A stretch of DNA of 64,000 nucleotides from a virus: the IMG/VR virus record IMGVR_UViG_3300042391_001376, positions 124,001 to 188,000 of that record, one strand, 5' to 3'. Made by a program: the position numbers and the translations under genes. The notes under the pieces are model-generated. The model saw nothing but the letters and a program-made list of their open reading frames with translations, did no database searches and had not been told where the DNA came from. Every line of letters starts with the position of its first letter. Position 1 is the first letter of the stretch. Below are positions 32,538 to 53,908 of the stretch, one piece after another.

Positions 32538-33341
32538 ATGAAGCCATTCAATCCAGGGGACAAGGTACGTTCCAAGGCAAAGCCTCATATAACAGGCACT
32601 GTAAAGTGGGTTAGGTTTGAACCCAATGGAGTATCTGTTAATAGGCAAAATTCACGTGGAAAATGGAACTATGTCCAGAAGATACCAAAGGGAGGTTATA
32701 CCGTATCTATTAACTGGGATCCAGTCCCACAACTTGGTTACTACCCAGAGCGTCCTTTGCACGGTCTACAGGGGTCTACCGCAATTGAGTTAGTGCCGCA
32801 AGAAAATGTCAATCAAGAAACAACAAACAACGAAAGGAAAGAAGCCATGTCAAATCAACCAACAACAATTCGGGAGGTAAATCCGATGAAGCAGTGCAAA
32901 CACCAAGTCTGGGATTGGAAATTAATTCCAGGACAAGTAAACACAGACTACAAGGCAGTTTATTGTGAACTGTGTGGAGAGCAACTGGCTCAACTTGCAC
33001 CAAAGAACAAACCAATGACAGATAAGCAGATAAAGTTTATCCGGTCTTTGTTCTTGGAAGTTAAATCAAACATGACAATTGATGAGCAGGAGTCTTTGAC
33101 AACAAAGATGAAAGCACATATCGATGGGACAAATGTACTCACCACCAAGTGGGCATCAGCAGCTATTGACAAGCTTAAGGCATACAAGCCTAAGCCTGTT
33201 AAGCCTGTTCAAGTCATGGAAGAGGATGAGCCATTTGGCAAAGTTGAATGTCATGTATGTGGCACGAAATACCAGCCAGAAGAAATGGGCGGATCAGGCA
33301 CTGAAGTATTCACCAACGGATGCATCGCATGTCTGTATTAA
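32538..33341 (+). CDS. Zinc-finger protein, possibly a fusion of two genes
   Basis: 267 residues. The first 85 are a beta-rich domain ('FNPGDKVRSKAKPHITGTVKW', KOW/SH3-like). A linker at 90-115 is encoded by DNA that looks like an intergenic region, including GGGAGGTAAA before an internal ATG at 32887. The second part has 'QCKHQVWDWK...CELCGEQLAQL', a helical segment, and C-terminal 'ECHVCGTKYQ...GCIACLY', i.e. two zinc modules. Internal initiation at 32887 could give a second product. Function unknown. Confidence 0.6.
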   Translation: MKPFNPGDKVRSKAKPHITGTVKWVRFEPNGVSVNRQNSRGKWNYVQKIPKGGYTVSINWDPVPQLGYYPERPLHGLQGSTAIELVPQENVNQETTNNERKEAMSNQPTTIREVNPMKQCKHQVWDWKLIPGQVNTDYKAVYCELCGEQLAQLAPKNKPMTDKQIKFIRSLFLEVKSNMTIDEQESLTTKMKAHIDGTNVLTTKWASAAIDKLKAYKPKPVKPVQVMEEDEPFGKVECHVCGTKYQPEEMGGSGTEVFTNGCIACLY

Positions 33342-33385
33342 ATCAATCAAACAATCAACCAACAACAAATGGGGAGGTAAAACCC

Positions 33386-36061
33386 ATGGAAACACCACAA
33401 CAAAAGCTCAATCGTTTAACGACAGAGCCTCAACAGAAAGGAGCAGAAGTGATTGCATTCATGCATGACTTCTTCCATACCATCACCAACGACCCAACAG
33501 AGCGTGAGTCATTGGCCTATTCAACCGTAAAGAAGACGGGCAAACCATTCAAGATGGGGACAACAGTTCGCACTGGTGAGAATGGTGCATACAACCACCA
33601 TATCTGGCTTATGCCAATCAACAACAACCCTACTTGGAAGTATGGACTCTTGGAGCACAAGCTTAACAGCCGCGGTAAGAAGTTCAAGCTTAAGATGATC
33701 ACAATCAATGAGCTGAAGCAGTGGATCAGCAAGGACAACGGAGACTTAGATGCACTCATCAAAGAATCCAACTTTGCTTGGGCTAATGCAACACATGCTT
33801 TCTTCTTGAAGATGCGTGAAGACAACAACTGGTCATTGGATGATCTTGGTGTCAGCGTAATCGACATGAAGAAGACATCAAAGCGACTTCAAGAAATCAC
33901 ACGGTTTACTCAGGTATATCGTTCAAGGTCAATGAAGTCAGTCACCACTAAGGCTTATACGAACGAATGGCTTGAGCAATACTACTCTAGCTATGGATTG
34001 AAGTATGATCCAGCAGATGAGGTGATGTTCGATGGACCAGCCTTCATGCGCAAATCAGCATTCATCAAAGCTTGTTTCCCTATCAAAGATGCGGAAGTAA
34101 GAGGCAAGATGATTGGTGGTGTACACGGTGACAATCGCACTTGGTTGTTCCGTATGAAAATGGAAGGCTGCATGCTTAAGGGCTTGTTGCACATTGTTGA
34201 GGATGATGAAATCCCAGCAGACATTGTGTACCATGAATCAATGGAAAAGAAGGAATTGTCCACAACAGATGGTAATTATACATTTGTAGCGTGGCCGATG
34301 CCAACTCTGTACGAAGTAACGATTGACGATCAATCAATGATCAATAATCCATGGTTGTACACCACTGAACACCTCAAAACTACATGCGACAGTCTTTTGT
34401 CTGACTTCAAGAAAGAAATCGAAGTGGGCAATATGCCAGAATGGATGACTGTTAGCATGGATGACCAAGAGGATCATGGAGTAGTCAACGAAGACAATGA
34501 ACTCCAAGAGTGGCAAGCAAACTACATCAAGTGGCAAAAGGCTGGGTTCTCATTGTATGACAGCTCAAACTTTATTCACATGGCGTACGGTCAGCTTGCT
34601 AATCGCATGAGTGCATCAGTTAAGCGTGGTAACATCTGGTTGCCAATGTTTAACGCATTCATGGCTCCTGTCATTACTCATGAGGCATTGCAAATCATGG
34701 GTGGACAAGAACTGCCAGAGTCAAAGTCAAATGTTGTATGGTATGACAAGCGCTTCGGTGCAATCATCCCAGGCAACCGCTTTGTTGAGACAGCAGATCT
34801 TCACGACACATGGGACCAAGATGGTGACATGGCCAGGTTCATCCGCATTAAGTTGTGGAGCTCTTCGCCAGTTGTAACTCTCTATGGGTTGTCACACCAG
34901 GAATTCAGGGATGGATTTGTTATCCCAGCTGACCTGGAAGTACCAACCACACCAGAAGAAGCAATCGACATGGTTGTCATCATTCGTTCACCAAACGGAC
35001 CTGGTGGTTATTCAATCGAGCGTTACGATGCAGAGACAATGCCATTTATGCGTGTAAACGAGGACATGGTACAGGTAATTGACCTTAGCAAAGCAACATT
35101 GCCGATGAGCACACTGCTTAAAGACACTATTGTTGACACTAAGCTCAATGAAATCCTGAACTCAACACAGTACACCAAGAGGGGATTCACACGGGATAAC
35201 GCCAAGGACATGATTGATGCACAACTGCACAACCCTGGGTTTGGTTCATTCTCAAACTTCATGATGGTGCATGCAAGTGTGTTCGGTCCAAGCTACCCAA
35301 CCTACATGCCAGCTAGTGGTAATGACATTATCGATGCAAGCTCTCAGACAGCAAACATTGAGGCATTCCGCTTTATCAGTGGCAGCGTATCAACCATGTG
35401 GCAATCATTGATCGATGATATGGTCAAACAAGATATCAAGATTGACAGCTACATGATGAGTCGTATCCCTGATCGGTTCAAGCATGAGTTGGAAGGTAAT
35501 GTCTATGATGGACCATTGGCAGAGCTCAGTGAGCACTACATCAAGGTACTCAAGGATGTACGCGAAGAGAAGAAGAACACCATCTATCTCCGCATGCGTT
35601 CTGAGTTAATTCCTCAACTGCAACAGTTAATCCCTACACTGTCAGATCAAACACAGGCTGTCTGTGAAGCATTCAACACCAAGTATATCCACATGTTGCG
35701 TGCATTTGACGAGCGTAAGGCAGAAGCTAAGGCAGAAGAGACAAAGTGGTCAAGCCGCTACTTCAAGGCATGGAACGCTGTGTATTCTTCAACCGAGTTG
35801 GAAGCCATTGTCAAGATGATGGTCGATGAGATTGAAACGTCCAAGTCACCAACCAAGATGGCTGTTGCTATCTATCGCTGGATGACTGATCCAAAGATGA
35901 GCTACGAGAGGGTGTATCACGAAGGTCGTGGCGAATACATCAAGGCCAATGCTCATCTGCGTTATGGTCTAGTTGACCGTGTAATGTTCCAAGCCGGCAA
36001 GCGTGGGCAGAAATCAATGATGGATCTGCTTATCCAGGGGCTCAAGGATCTGGGCCTCTAG
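33386..36061 (+). CDS. Putative single-chain two-barrel RNA polymerase (YonO/QDE-1-like)
   Basis: 891 residues from the ATG at 33386 (GGGAGGTAAAACCC upstream). Seen: 'EVMFDGPAFMRKSAF' (D216, G217), 'EGCMLKGLLHIVED' (K265), 'WDQDGDMARF' (D477, D479, D481), and 'GFGSFSNFMMVHASVF' with 'IIDASSQT' later. Known: QDE-1/RdRp and YonO enzymes have DG near a lysine barrel, then DxDGD about 240 residues after the Lys, then an N-containing helix before a conserved acidic segment. The spacing here (212) fits. Caution: the 'RSPN' element (R534) follows instead of precedes DxDGD. The 45897 protein is a paralogue. Confidence 0.55.
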   Translation: METPQQKLNRLTTEPQQKGAEVIAFMHDFFHTITNDPTERESLAYSTVKKTGKPFKMGTTVRTGENGAYNHHIWLMPINNNPTWKYGLLEHKLNSRGKKFKLKMITINELKQWISKDNGDLDALIKESNFAWANATHAFFLKMREDNNWSLDDLGVSVIDMKKTSKRLQEITRFTQVYRSRSMKSVTTKAYTNEWLEQYYSSYGLKYDPADEVMFDGPAFMRKSAFIKACFPIKDAEVRGKMIGGVHGDNRTWLFRMKMEGCMLKGLLHIVEDDEIPADIVYHESMEKKELSTTDGNYTFVAWPMPTLYEVTIDDQSMINNPWLYTTEHLKTTCDSLLSDFKKEIEVGNMPEWMTVSMDDQEDHGVVNEDNELQEWQANYIKWQKAGFSLYDSSNFIHMAYGQLANRMSASVKRGNIWLPMFNAFMAPVITHEALQIMGGQELPESKSNVVWYDKRFGAIIPGNRFVETADLHDTWDQDGDMARFIRIKLWSSSPVVTLYGLSHQEFRDGFVIPADLEVPTTPEEAIDMVVIIRSPNGPGGYSIERYDAETMPFMRVNEDMVQVIDLSKATLPMSTLLKDTIVDTKLNEILNSTQYTKRGFTRDNAKDMIDAQLHNPGFGSFSNFMMVHASVFGPSYPTYMPASGNDIIDASSQTANIEAFRFISGSVSTMWQSLIDDMVKQDIKIDSYMMSRIPDRFKHELEGNVYDGPLAELSEHYIKVLKDVREEKKNTIYLRMRSELIPQLQQLIPTLSDQTQAVCEAFNTKYIHMLRAFDERKAEAKAEETKWSSRYFKAWNAVYSSTELEAIVKMMVDEIETSKSPTKMAVAIYRWMTDPKMSYERVYHEGRGEYIKANAHLRYGLVDRVMFQAGKRGQKSMMDLLIQGLKDLGL

Positions 36062-45896: not shown

Positions 45897-48530
45897 ATGA
45901 ACATGCCAATATATCAGCCTGCCGTCCGTTTACAAACAATGCACAACGGACCATTGCGAAGCATTAACGATTATCAATTTGGATTCTATGATGTCGGCTT
46001 CGGTCGGCAAGCTCTTCAATATCTTCACGAAGTAGAAGGTCTTGAAAATCCAATATTTAGAATGGCTACTATGCCAATTCCTTCCAATAAGATTGAAGCA
46101 AAGATTGCAGAAGCATACATCCGTAATCCTAACATCTGCTATTCAATAGTAGATAAAAATAAGATCGTATTAGTACATATCAACGGCAACGATGGTTGGC
46201 TTGATGTATACAAGAAACTTGGTTATGAAATCCTTAGTGGCGACAAGACAGCTAAGCGACTCAAAACCTTCCACCGTGCAGCATTGTTAAATGCTCACTT
46301 CACTAAAGATGAAATCAATGTCCAGATCGTAGATCCAGATGAATATTCATCTTGGTCATTTGAAGATCCATCCTTTCAAGAATGGGCTACAAAAGAATAC
46401 CCTAATATCGACGTTACAGATCCTAAGGTCATCGAGCGTTTGCTTGATGGCGGTTTCGTAATCTCTCGTAAGTTTATTCAGCGTGCAGCTGAAAACTTAC
46501 CAGTATACGAACCACACAAAACTTTAGATACTAAAGAATATTATTACGACTGGCGTGTTCGTAAGAACTTTATTAAAGATATGATGGAATGCTCTATATT
46601 CAATACTCGTATTGTATTCGAAGAGGGTTTCCTCAAGGGCAATGCCATCGTATCTGACAACATGCCAGAAGGTGTAGATATTATCACTACACGCACAAAT
46701 ATAAAGAACGAAATCAAGTATCACAATGGCTTTCAGTTTCTAGCTGAGCCAGTGGGATCGTATGATTCTGTTCTTACTGACACCCAAACTGTTATTAATC
46801 TTCCTAAACTATTCCCTAACGCTGATCTAGAGTATTGGCTTGACGAAGAATACAAAAAGATCTTTGATCTTGCTGTATCCGACAAGCTACTCACTAACTG
46901 GCGTGCAGTTTACAAGCGTCAGTTCCGCAAAATCCACGAAGCAGAAGACGAAGAAGCATATGCCCGCATGAACTATGTGGGCTATCGTTGGCGTAAGCTT
47001 GGCATGAAAATCACTGATTCACCATGGTTGTTTGAAACCTTGGCGATCAGTCATGCCCGACCATTTGCCGATTCATCTAAGCCTCGTATACCAGTTCCAT
47101 GCGCAATAAGTGAACAGGTTATTCCTGAGTCACTTTCTCGTATGGCTGGCTATGACATCGAAGTAGACCAAGGCAAGATACGACGTATCGAAGAACTTGG
47201 TGTACACGTAGTTAGTGACCTTGACTGGCTAGAAATGTATGAGAGCCATGGCGGTCACGACGAGGACGACTACTTCAAGCTGTTCTATCGCACCATGCGT
47301 GGTGGCGAATACGACGGCAAGAAGGTAGTTATCATCTGCCGTTCACCCAATGACCTTGGTGAGTATTCAATCTTTGAATACACCGAAGGTGATTGGTCTC
47401 CAGTATGGCACAACGCTGCTGGTATCCCAACAGAATTTCCAGAAATAAGCGGACGTGACTGGCCAAAGCGTTTAAGTAAAGCTATCTTTGATGGCGACAT
47501 TACTTATTCAGGTTTGCCATCTAAATCACTACCTAAAACTAAGCCTGAACAGGCACCCTATACACCTGACGACGTCATTCGAGATATGAATATCGCAATG
47601 GCTGGCGGTCAAATCGGTGGATATGTAAATGCTTGCATGCTTTATTCTTCGGTGATTCACCGTCACCGTCCAATTCAATTGTGCACTTTAGAGACTGCTC
47701 TCGACAAATGCATTAACCCAGATTCTATAGAAGATGTTATAGCAATTGACAACGAAGCTAAAGCTATTGTTCGTCAAGTTATCGAAAGCAAAACCCCAAT
47801 CGATCAATTCGTTTGGAGTACTCGTGGTTCAGCCCGTTTACTTGAAGAAGATGATGATCTTCTGATAGATGAAAACGGCAAGCTAACCATGATGTCTAAA
47901 TTATGCTATGATAAATTTGCAGAACACACTGCTCGCGTTCGTGAATGGGCACAAAATAATGCCCGTCCATCCGATCCACGCATAGCAGAATTGGGCAATA
48001 GCCAATTGCAAATGTTCTATCATGCACTACCAATTGTCAACCAGTTCCGCTCAGGCATATGGTCAATTAATACATCTGAAGCAACAGCTGAAAATGGATC
48101 TATTGTACGCAACTCTTGGGAATATTTATATTCCAAACAAGTTGACATCATCAATTCATTTGAACTTGAATCTGATCGTCACGACTTCGTACTTGCACTA
48201 TATTCTGTCTGTCTTAATGTGCCAACCAAAGGTGGCAAAATTACAGACCATTATATGATGAACAGATTTGTTTATCCATATCTAGAATCCGCTTTGCAGT
48301 ATTATGGTTTGGGCAAATCTGTCAACTTCCTGATGCAAGAAGATGGTGATGTTAAGATTCTCGAAACATTAGTTACCGAATGGAAGTTTACCGATCCTGA
48401 AGGCAACTCAACTTTATTCAATGATCCAATTGAATTTCAACAAGCTCAGTCTGTTTATTCTAAAGTTCAATTTGTTACAAATTCTGCTTCGTTACTTTCT
48501 TCGGAAGTACGAACTACTTCAAAGTATTAA
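45897..48530 (+). CDS. Paralogue of the putative two-barrel RNA polymerase, altered metal loop
   Basis: 877 residues from the ATG at 45897 (or 45903; AAAGG lies just upstream). It aligns by eye with the 33386 protein: 'EEGFLKGNAIVSD' (K247) matches 'EGCMLKGLLHIVED'; 'GGHDEDDYFKLF' (D455, D457, D458) matches 'WDQDGDMARF' at nearly the same distance from the Lys (208 versus 212); 'VVIICRSPNDLGEYSI' matches 'VVIIRSPNGPGGYSI'. The later 'GGQIGGYVNACMLYSS' and 'VIAIDNEAKAI' match the helix and acid region after the metal loop. The Gly of DxDGD is missing. It may be an active divergent polymerase or a partner subunit. Confidence 0.5.
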   Translation: MNMPIYQPAVRLQTMHNGPLRSINDYQFGFYDVGFGRQALQYLHEVEGLENPIFRMATMPIPSNKIEAKIAEAYIRNPNICYSIVDKNKIVLVHINGNDGWLDVYKKLGYEILSGDKTAKRLKTFHRAALLNAHFTKDEINVQIVDPDEYSSWSFEDPSFQEWATKEYPNIDVTDPKVIERLLDGGFVISRKFIQRAAENLPVYEPHKTLDTKEYYYDWRVRKNFIKDMMECSIFNTRIVFEEGFLKGNAIVSDNMPEGVDIITTRTNIKNEIKYHNGFQFLAEPVGSYDSVLTDTQTVINLPKLFPNADLEYWLDEEYKKIFDLAVSDKLLTNWRAVYKRQFRKIHEAEDEEAYARMNYVGYRWRKLGMKITDSPWLFETLAISHARPFADSSKPRIPVPCAISEQVIPESLSRMAGYDIEVDQGKIRRIEELGVHVVSDLDWLEMYESHGGHDEDDYFKLFYRTMRGGEYDGKKVVIICRSPNDLGEYSIFEYTEGDWSPVWHNAAGIPTEFPEISGRDWPKRLSKAIFDGDITYSGLPSKSLPKTKPEQAPYTPDDVIRDMNIAMAGGQIGGYVNACMLYSSVIHRHRPIQLCTLETALDKCINPDSIEDVIAIDNEAKAIVRQVIESKTPIDQFVWSTRGSARLLEEDDDLLIDENGKLTMMSKLCYDKFAEHTARVREWAQNNARPSDPRIAELGNSQLQMFYHALPIVNQFRSGIWSINTSEATAENGSIVRNSWEYLYSKQVDIINSFELESDRHDFVLALYSVCLNVPTKGGKITDHYMMNRFVYPYLESALQYYGLGKSVNFLMQEDGDVKILETLVTEWKFTDPEGNSTLFNDPIEFQQAQSVYSKVQFVTNSASLLSSEVRTTSKY

Positions 48531-51976: not shown

Positions 51977-52062
51977 GCCCAGGTGGCGGAACCGGTAGAC
52001 GCAAGGGGCTTAAACCCCCTCGATTAGAAATGATCGTACGGGTTCGATCCCCGTCTTGGGCA
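51977..52062 (+). tRNA. tRNA-Leu (TAA anticodon)
   Basis: Class II tRNA with long variable arm (86 bases). Acceptor GCCCAGG pairs with CTTGGGC; anticodon stem GGGGC/ACCCC-type around CTTAAAC, giving TAA; variable stem near TCGATTAGAAATGATCGTA; T arm ACGGG(TTCGATC)CCCGT. Reads UUA. Confidence 0.93.
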
Positions 52063-52082
52063 CAAAAGAACAAAGGAACTCT

Positions 52083-53522
52083 ATGCGGAATAAGAGCCAC
52101 TATCTAAAACTGTTGTTAACAACAGCATTAATGTTAACAGTTCTTGTTAACTCAAAAACTAATACAGCTAATGCTGGCGATGTTGCACCAGCTGTTTCAA
52201 CTGTTAAGTTTTATCGTAAACTGACCAACTATTATTTGCCCAATTTATCATCTGCAGTCCCAAGAATGGGTGCAGATATAGCTTACAATAATAACTTCAG
52301 AGGACAAGATTCCTTTATAGTTATTCTTGATACTGGCATTGAAGCTGTCCACTCATTCTTTGGTGGCAGAGTAGCACTTGAAGCTTGCTTCGCCGTCAAA
52401 TGCCCCAATGGTCAAATATCTATGGTTGGTTCTGGTGCAGCAGCCCCAATTCATTGGCACGGTACCCATGTTGCAGGCATTGCCGCTGGACTTAACTCAT
52501 CTATTAGAGGTATAGCACCAAGCGCAAAGATCATTGCAGTAAATGTTTTTGCTGCAGATGGTTCTGCTTCAGACTCTGATCTTATTCGCGCATTACAATG
52601 GGTTGATTCTATATCTGATCAATATAATATTGCGGCTGTCAACATGTCTCTTGGTACACCAGGAACATTTAAATCTTCATGCAACTCTTATATACCAGAT
52701 TTAACTTCAATTATTTCTACATTGAAGTCTAAAAATATTGCTACTGTAGTTTCAGCCGGCAACGAAGGCCAGCGTGGAATGAGTTCCCCAGCATGCATTA
52801 CAGACACTGTCAGTGTTGCCGCAACTTACACTGCTGGAGACGGCAGTGACAGAGTTACTAGCTTTAGCAACGTTAATGAATTAACTGATTTATCAGCTCC
52901 TGGATACAACATAGTGTCTTCCAAACTTATGGGTGCATATGGTGCATCTTCAGGAACATCTATGTCAGCACCTATGGTTGCTGGCGCATTTGCAGTATAC
53001 CGTTCTAAGTTTGGCGTACAATCAGTAGATAAAGTAGTATCTGACTTTCAATCTACTGGAATCAACGCAGTAGATGATTACACCAAAATTGTTACAAAAA
53101 GAATAGATTTTAGATCCCTGTTTTCAACACCTGGATCTACACCCCCACCACCCACCACAACTATTCCCTCACCAACTACAACAACTCCATCACCTACTAC
53201 CACCGTACTTGATGAAGATGATGAATCAGAAGACTATTTAAATATTCCTTACATTATAACTTTGAAAAAGTTTGCAACTAGACTATCTTATATTCGATTA
53301 GACTTTACATACAGATATACAAATATACCTGTGTCTAATTTTATTTTAAGGTGCAGATATGCAGACAATAAAATTGTTGATAAAGTTATTAGCAATAGAA
53401 ACAGAACAACTAATTCTTACTTTATATCAATATCTTCATTAAATATTCGCTCATGTAGAATGGCCGCAGTATCAACAGATGGTACTGTCGGTCAATTCTC
53501 CAAATACATATTGGTGAAATAA
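52083..53522 (+). CDS. Secreted subtilisin-like (S8) serine protease
   Basis: 479 residues from the ATG at 52083; a longer frame would begin inside the tRNA, and AAAGGAAC precedes 52083. Signal peptide about residues 1-31 ('LLLTTALMLTVLVNS..TANAG'). Catalytic D83 ('VILDTGIE'), H126 ('HGTHVAGIA'), oxyanion N227 ('SAGNEGQ') and S293 ('SGTSMSAPMVAG') are complete. A Pro/Thr linker at about 355-378 leads to a beta-rich C-terminal domain, possibly for surface binding. Secreted by infected cells or used in lysis. Other subtilisins usually need a prodomain; here it is very short. Confidence 0.85.
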   Translation: MRNKSHYLKLLLTTALMLTVLVNSKTNTANAGDVAPAVSTVKFYRKLTNYYLPNLSSAVPRMGADIAYNNNFRGQDSFIVILDTGIEAVHSFFGGRVALEACFAVKCPNGQISMVGSGAAAPIHWHGTHVAGIAAGLNSSIRGIAPSAKIIAVNVFAADGSASDSDLIRALQWVDSISDQYNIAAVNMSLGTPGTFKSSCNSYIPDLTSIISTLKSKNIATVVSAGNEGQRGMSSPACITDTVSVAATYTAGDGSDRVTSFSNVNELTDLSAPGYNIVSSKLMGAYGASSGTSMSAPMVAGAFAVYRSKFGVQSVDKVVSDFQSTGINAVDDYTKIVTKRIDFRSLFSTPGSTPPPPTTTIPSPTTTTPSPTTTVLDEDDESEDYLNIPYIITLKKFATRLSYIRLDFTYRYTNIPVSNFILRCRYADNKIVDKVISNRNRTTNSYFISISSLNIRSCRMAAVSTDGTVGQFSKYILVK

Positions 53523-53593: not shown

Positions 53594-53908
53594 ATGAACT
53601 GGCAAGACAGAGCTTATTGCAAAGGGTTTACCCATATATTTTATGGTAAACTTGCTGAAAGACCACAAGCTACAGCTCGTAGAGAAGCAATTGCATATTC
53701 TATTTGCGCAAAATGTCCAGTCTTTAACGAATGCAGACAACATGCTAGAGCTCATGGCGAGCTAGGATATTGGGCTGGAGAAAATGAATATGATAGATAT
53801 TTGTTAGGTTTTAAACCAATAGTTTCATTTGGTGCTTTTTTAAGATCTGCTCAGATTTATTTAGAAAGAAAACAAAAATTAATTAAAAAGGAAAATAAAA
53901 CATCATGA
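53594..53908 (+). CDS. WhiB-like iron-sulfur regulator 2 (divergent)
   Basis: 104 residues with CGGAG upstream. The four Cys are kept ('DRAYCKGFTH', 'SICAKCPVFNECRQH') but the usual GVWGG turn is 'GYWAG', and the C-terminal region is 'ERKQKLIKKENK'. This suggests a WhiB protein with changed sigma-factor contact. Its stop overlaps the next ATG. Confidence 0.8.
   Translation: MNWQDRAYCKGFTHIFYGKLAERPQATARREAIAYSICAKCPVFNECRQHARAHGELGYWAGENEYDRYLLGFKPIVSFGAFLRSAQIYLERKQKLIKKENKTS

Follow-up and report, generated by a model that had tools for sequence, protein, structure and literature searches.

To our knowledge, all cellular transcription rests on a two-barrel active site, and neither the layout of its barrels nor its DxDxD loop is regarded as variable. 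Among phage enzymes of this fold, YonO and the P23-45 enzymes are DNA-dependent RNA polymerases (PMC5467207, PMC10770324), and both P23-45 and the jumbo phages carry paired polymerases (PMC10770324, PMC7598289). In the duplicated pair of P23-45, one enzyme serves the pre-early genes and the other serves the early and some of the middle genes (PMC10770324). An aquatic "moraphage" lineage has been reported to be without RNA polymerase genes (PMC12619734). The strand order of the double-psi barrel has been published as b3-b1'-b2-b2'-b1-b3' (PMC11258233), which places b3' next to b3 at the closure of the barrel.

Here we describe two polymerase-like genes, P0001 and P0002, in a stretch of 64,000 nucleotides (the window) taken from a virus record of 204,904 bases, which at about 205 kb represents an environmental phage with a jumbo-size genome. 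We regard the P0001 family as a previously unannotated branch, and a variant one, of the two-barrel polymerases that consist of a single chain. The best explanation for our observations, which we consider likely, is that P0001 and P0002 are ancient paralogous polymerases of this type, probably DNA-dependent RNA polymerases, with a rearranged aspartate barrel.

Two paralogous genes and their predicted fold

P0001, the type I paralog, occupies positions 33386 to 36061 on the plus strand and is predicted from its translation, AF2 model, and Foldseek matches to be a single-chain two-barrel RNA polymerase of 891 amino acids. Its frame is open as far back as 33320 (913 amino acids), but the ATG at 33386 is probably the true start, since a Shine-Dalgarno-like GGGGAGG (33371 to 33377, plus strand), read directly from the sequence, lies 8 nucleotides upstream. 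A 267-amino-acid open reading frame (32538 to 33341, plus strand), for which only weak zinc-ribbon-like matches were found, runs at its own end into the long P0001 frame and could be a cotranscribed partner of P0001.

The translation of 33386 to 36061 places D216-G217, the LKG motif with K265, and DQDGD at residues 477 to 481 exactly where the preliminary description had located them. D216-G217 (34031 to 34036) belongs to the lysine barrel (DPBB-B), is invariant in all 30 homologs, and aligns with TDGCG of YonO, while the catalytic-lysine motif L264-K265-G266 (34175 to 34183), with K265 and G266 likewise invariant, has VKGLL as its YonO counterpart. In the aspartate barrel (DPBB-A), translation and homolog alignment identify DQDGD (34814 to 34828) as the predicted metal-binding loop; the best, although weak, local alignment of this segment is to DNDGD of YonO, and the lysine and the first aspartate are 212 residues apart. 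Downstream follow the R-x-P element RSPN (residues 534 to 537; 34985 to 34996), with R, P, and N present in 30 of 30 homologs, and G620..N624 (35243 to 35257; G620 in 30 and N624 in 27 of 30), which corresponds to the IGxxSN motif conserved after the active site in YonO-like enzymes. All of these features lie on the plus strand.

The second two-barrel polymerase gene in the window, P0002 (45897 to 48530, plus strand; 877 amino acids, type II), had not been noted in the preliminary description and was recognized by blastp, its AF2 model, and Foldseek. P0001 and P0002 are 22% identical in a blastp alignment that spans the shared motifs (E 7e-6), and their families cross-match in profile searches with E values down to 1e-23. 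LKG and RSPN are common to both proteins, whereas P0002 has HDEDDYF in place of WDQDGDM. The homolog alignment places the P0002 motifs, all on the plus strand, at D184-G185 (46446 to 46451), K247-G248 (46635 to 46640), DEDD at residues 455 to 458 (47259 to 47270), and RSPN at residues 482 to 485 (47340 to 47351), 27 residues past the first aspartate. A second, IFDGD-like stretch at residues 530 to 536 (about 47484 to 47504) is paired by hhalign with the aspartate loop of YonO; we rejected it as a metal site because it is not conserved among relatives.

Our homolog set comprises 30 proteins, of which 10 are type I (P0001-like), 17 type II (P0002-like), and 3 type III, and all homologs found come from uncultured viral contigs. 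Thirteen residues (D216, G217, R256, K265, G266, D279, K288, E290, D477, D479, R534, P536, and N537) do not vary among the 30 proteins, even across paralogs with about 18 to 20% identity, and the P0001 motifs are therefore not chance occurrences in the sequence. In the 30-row tree, the P0001-like and P0002-like sides separate with 100/100 support, and the long-branch companions L076, L085, and L090, which we named type III, are placed between them. Most phages with homologs pair one protein of each type, the type I or III gene usually lying about 10 to 16 kb from the type II gene in the same record, and from this co-occurrence in the sequences we conclude that the duplication that gave rise to the pair is older than the phage group itself. 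In one record of 267 kb, two type II genes take the place of a mixed pair. A tblastn search of 50,697 cultured-phage records with P0001, P0002, and L040 gave no match, one scan of genome contigs turned up no relative, and the Pfam, PHROG, and PDB sequence libraries returned no significant match, only noise. A PHROG match of P0002 to "RNA-dependent RNA polymerase" was set aside at an E value of 0.05.

In two records, additional domains precede the P0001 homolog in the same frame, namely a NADAR domain, without an intervening stop, in L008 (7422 to 8000; PF08719, E 1.6e-23) and a weak 2OG-Fe(II) oxygenase-like region in L004 (7293 to 8000; PF13640, E 0.0029). In the window, the upstream frame reads NGEVKP-M across the Shine-Dalgarno sequence and ATG of P0001, and the L004 linker is the same peptide, so it is possible that such upstream domains and the P0001 homologs are translated separately rather than fused; in L008, either a fusion or a start inside the long frame would fit.

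The AF2 models were built from alignments of 25 rows for P0001 (pLDDT 78.3, pTM 0.75) and 24 rows for P0002 (pLDDT 84.4, pTM 0.81), which have most rows in common, so that neither model is entirely independent of the other. In Foldseek searches of the PDB, the P0001 model matched QDE-1 and plant RDR2 best (E 5.0e-7 to 4.6e-5, probability 1.00), followed by the P23-45-type phage RNA polymerases gp64 and gp62 (E 1.7e-3 and 1.4e-2) and then by formylmethanofuran dehydrogenase subunits, which are DPBB proteins. The P0002 model matched RDR2 (E 2.7e-9), QDE-1 (E 9.2e-9), and gp62/gp64 (E about 2e-3), and a match in BFVD was to a phage protein named "RNA dependent RNA polymerase" (E 1.1e-5). Foldseek TM-scores for the RDR matches were 0.30 to 0.43 with large rmsd, so the likeness to RDR structures is restricted to the catalytic core, and such a core-only match is what is expected for the two-barrel polymerase class. 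The structure prediction proposed earlier as a check of the two-barrel assignment thus bore it out, with QDE-1, RDR2, and gp64/gp62 leading the Foldseek lists. For both paralogs, the matches of the predicted models point to two double-psi beta-barrels as in QDE-1, and the catalytic lysine of the first barrel, with DG upstream, is found in all 30 proteins (YonO segment alignment, P 0.006). Judging from these models, P0001 and P0002 almost certainly belong to the two-barrel polymerase fold class.

The metal loop and the position of the R-x-P element

The third aspartate of the P0001 loop, D481, is conserved without exception in the P0001-like group alone, where all 10 type I proteins read DQDGD or DSDGD. 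In the remaining 20 of the 30 homologs (types II and III, including P0002), a loop that had escaped the preliminary description reads D-x-D-D, in which the third aspartate directly adjoins the second, so that DxDxD is not literally present. Since a strand begins directly past the last aspartate in both AF2 models, the metal loop seems to have become shorter by one residue in D-x-D-D. Because the type III companions carry it too, this short loop has probably kept its function.

We compared 12 known two-barrel enzymes of phages for motif order, and in every one of them, including YonO, YonO relatives, gp64, TSP4, gp96, and gp66, R-x-P lies 38 to 68 residues before DxDxD, whereas in all 30 homologs of the family the invariant R-x-P lies 26 to 57 residues after the first aspartate. 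The earlier proposal that RSPN sits on the opposite side of DxDGD therefore stands with respect to these 12 phage enzymes and across the 30 family members. What the family lacks is an invariant R-x-P before the metal loop, a feature observed in all 12 of these known enzymes rather than published as defining, and this sets the family apart as a variant. Profile alignment with hhalign against the YonO family gave P values of 0.0029 (all 25 rows), 0.0088 (type II only), and 0.09 (A4), with a weak signal outside the lysine barrel, and no signal was obtained against gp64, gp96, or gp66. This approach pairs RSPN with RSPH of the YonO relatives, and when the lysine, aspartate, RSPN, and GxxxN segments were aligned singly, each landed first on the corresponding YonO motif, with a small P value for the lysine segment only. 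From these alignments, YonO has the order lysine, R-x-P, Asp, GxxxN, whereas the present family has lysine, Asp, R-x-P, GxxxN, and on this evidence the motif order is, at the level of sequence, very likely swapped relative to the known phage enzymes.

The AF2 secondary structure has no strand at the usual place of the third strand, where the P0002 model leaves only about 10 residues for b3, and has one strand directly after the post-loop strand. If b3 were supplied by a hairpin after b3', the tip with R-x-P would be left beside the metal loop, and the strand ending in the nucleotide-contacting R-x-P would have moved from before the metal loop to right after it. The hairpin would run from the metal loop through a strand, a turn, and a second strand to RSPN, which would form the end of the return strand. 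In P0002, the modeled strand pair 459 to 468 and 476 to 481, which separates the metal loop from RSPN, fits such a hairpin. A half-barrel circular permutation was set aside because the 7 residues between these two strands could not accommodate the two further strands and the helix that it would require. On the strength of the models, we consider it reasonably likely that the R-x-P-bearing strand is relocated within the aspartate barrel; RSPN would then lie at the predicted position in space.

Alternative readings, function, and genomic setting

One might instead regard RSPN as another conserved post-loop element of the cellular enzymes, in which case the ordinary R-x-P strand would have been lost or would correspond to the RIPIPC segment of type II. 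In E. coli beta-prime, DFDGD is followed about 28 residues later by an RNI[LV][ST]P..NG segment, and the 26 to 28 residues between the first aspartate and R-x-P in types II and III would fit this spacing; moreover, some R-x-P occurs between the lysine and the metal loop in 16 of 17 proteins of type II and is RIPIPC-like in 15. We nevertheless consider this rather unlikely, since hhalign sets RSPN against RSPH of YonO and not against a post-loop segment, the sequence hhhRNPND of two type III proteins resembles the RNP of TR-TP1, L069, and gp96, and the downstream arginine is present in 30 of 30 proteins, the upstream one being missing in types I and III and in two proteins of type II. It is similarly doubtful that only one paralog is active, with P0002 having lost or altered catalysis and serving P0001 as a structural or regulatory partner, as might be suspected from the noncanonical spacing of its D-E-D-D loop and from the dimeric state of QDE-1 (PMC1750930). 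The three aspartates (D455, D457, and D458 in P0002) are invariant in 17 of 17 type II proteins, and the phages behind L076, L085, and L090 also have a D-L-D-D companion paralog; with every copy short-looped in these phages, whose records may be incomplete, at least one such copy would have to work.

QDE-1 and RDR2 are the nearest structures, and P0001 and P0002 might accordingly copy RNA in a QDE-1-like manner, or synthesize DNA or primers, instead of transcribing the phage genome. This is improbable, given that the YonO-like and P23-45 enzymes of the same fold use DNA templates to make RNA (PMC5467207, PMC10770324) and that the phage has an open reading frame resembling, by eye, a DnaE-type DNA polymerase. 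Less probable still is that P0001 is a large phage protein of another kind, its motifs being accidental and its low-depth model misleading: although no library recognizes P0001 and the alignment is shallow, the two models converge on one fold class, which tops all matches, and the catalytic residues are among the invariant positions.

By analogy, P0001 and P0002 likely have RNA polymerase activity and would transcribe parts of the phage genome from a DNA template, with the L-K-G lysine of the first double-psi barrel and the putatively metal-binding aspartates of the second forming the usual two-metal active site. A division of labor as in P23-45 is a reasonable guess. We lean slightly toward a new large-phage branch in which the third strand follows the metal loop, the loop is mostly D-x-D-D, and an ancient paralog pair may act in a stage-specific manner.

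Profiles of beta and beta-prime (PF00562, PF00623) found nothing across the record, the positive controls being matched, and P0001 had no Pfam match to the T7-type palm (PF00940), for which the control of the genome-wide search matched nowhere either. Two adjacent open reading frames in L053 (17571 to 18448, minus strand, same genome coordinates) may together represent a single phage sigma factor that is frameshifted or interrupted: one contains a segment like sigma-70 region 4 (PF08281, E 3.1e-5, just below the cut-off), the other resembles, by eye, the start of a sigma factor, and a search with PF04542 gave no match. The region 4-like frame suggests that the host polymerase is also used. The window further contains a WhiB transcription factor gene (53594 to 53908, plus strand; PF02467, E 2.4e-10), and, WhiB factors being actinobacterial, this hints at an actinobacterial host. 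Also present are a subtilase-family protease (52056 to 53522, plus strand; PF00082, E 9.7e-33), which has a signal-peptide-like start and adjoins the tRNA-Leu gene, and six tRNA genes (Arg, Leu, Asn, Lys, Met, and Thr) between 42673 and 58881 on the plus strand.

If our reading is true, a family that retains the lysine and the aspartates while moving R-x-P and tolerating D-x-D-D shows how far the core can be rewired and makes models of barrel evolution testable. It also adds a paired-polymerase class that goes unrecognized by the annotation libraries we used, so more phages may encode their own transcription enzymes than has been recorded.

Comparison with described polymerases

The best structural matches to P0001 and P0002, the eukaryotic RNA-silencing polymerases QDE-1 and RDR2, likewise consist of one chain with the lysine barrel first and the aspartate barrel second, and the lysine-to-aspartate distance of P0001 is similar to the value of about 240 given for the QDE-1 class in the preliminary description. 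No sequence match to them was detected, and in QDE-1 and RDR2 the R-x-P precedes the aspartate loop. YonO of phage SPbeta and its relatives resemble P0001 as single chains of about 850 amino acids, and their motifs DG, R, KGLL, RSP, DxDGD, and GxxSN can be likened to those of the family, although the profile match is weak; RSPH of YonO lies 43 residues before DNDGD, whereas RSPN follows the loop in the P0001 family. The tblastn searches with P0001 and P0002 find no YonO-bearing cultured phage either.

Both gp64 (nvRNAP) and gp96 (vRNAP) of P23-45, like P0001 and P0002, form an anciently duplicated pair of single-chain two-barrel enzymes within one phage (PMC10770324), and enzymes of this type are the Foldseek matches 8f72 and 8f5m. 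Unlike the P0001 family, they keep the canonical order, RRP..DYDGD in gp64 and RNP..DFDGD in gp96, and gp96 forms one polypeptide with the tail tape measure, a fusion that P0001 and P0002 do not have. The virion RNA polymerase gp66 of crAss-like phage phi14:2 is of the same single-chain two-barrel class as P0001, but it has 2180 amino acids, carries RIP before DFDID, adjoins a virion structural gene, and gives no profile signal with the family. The jumbo phages phiKZ and AR9 have two polymerases each, as does the phage described here, yet their barrels are split over several subunits (PMC7824862, PMC7598289), whereas P0001 is a single chain in a record without a beta or beta-prime match.
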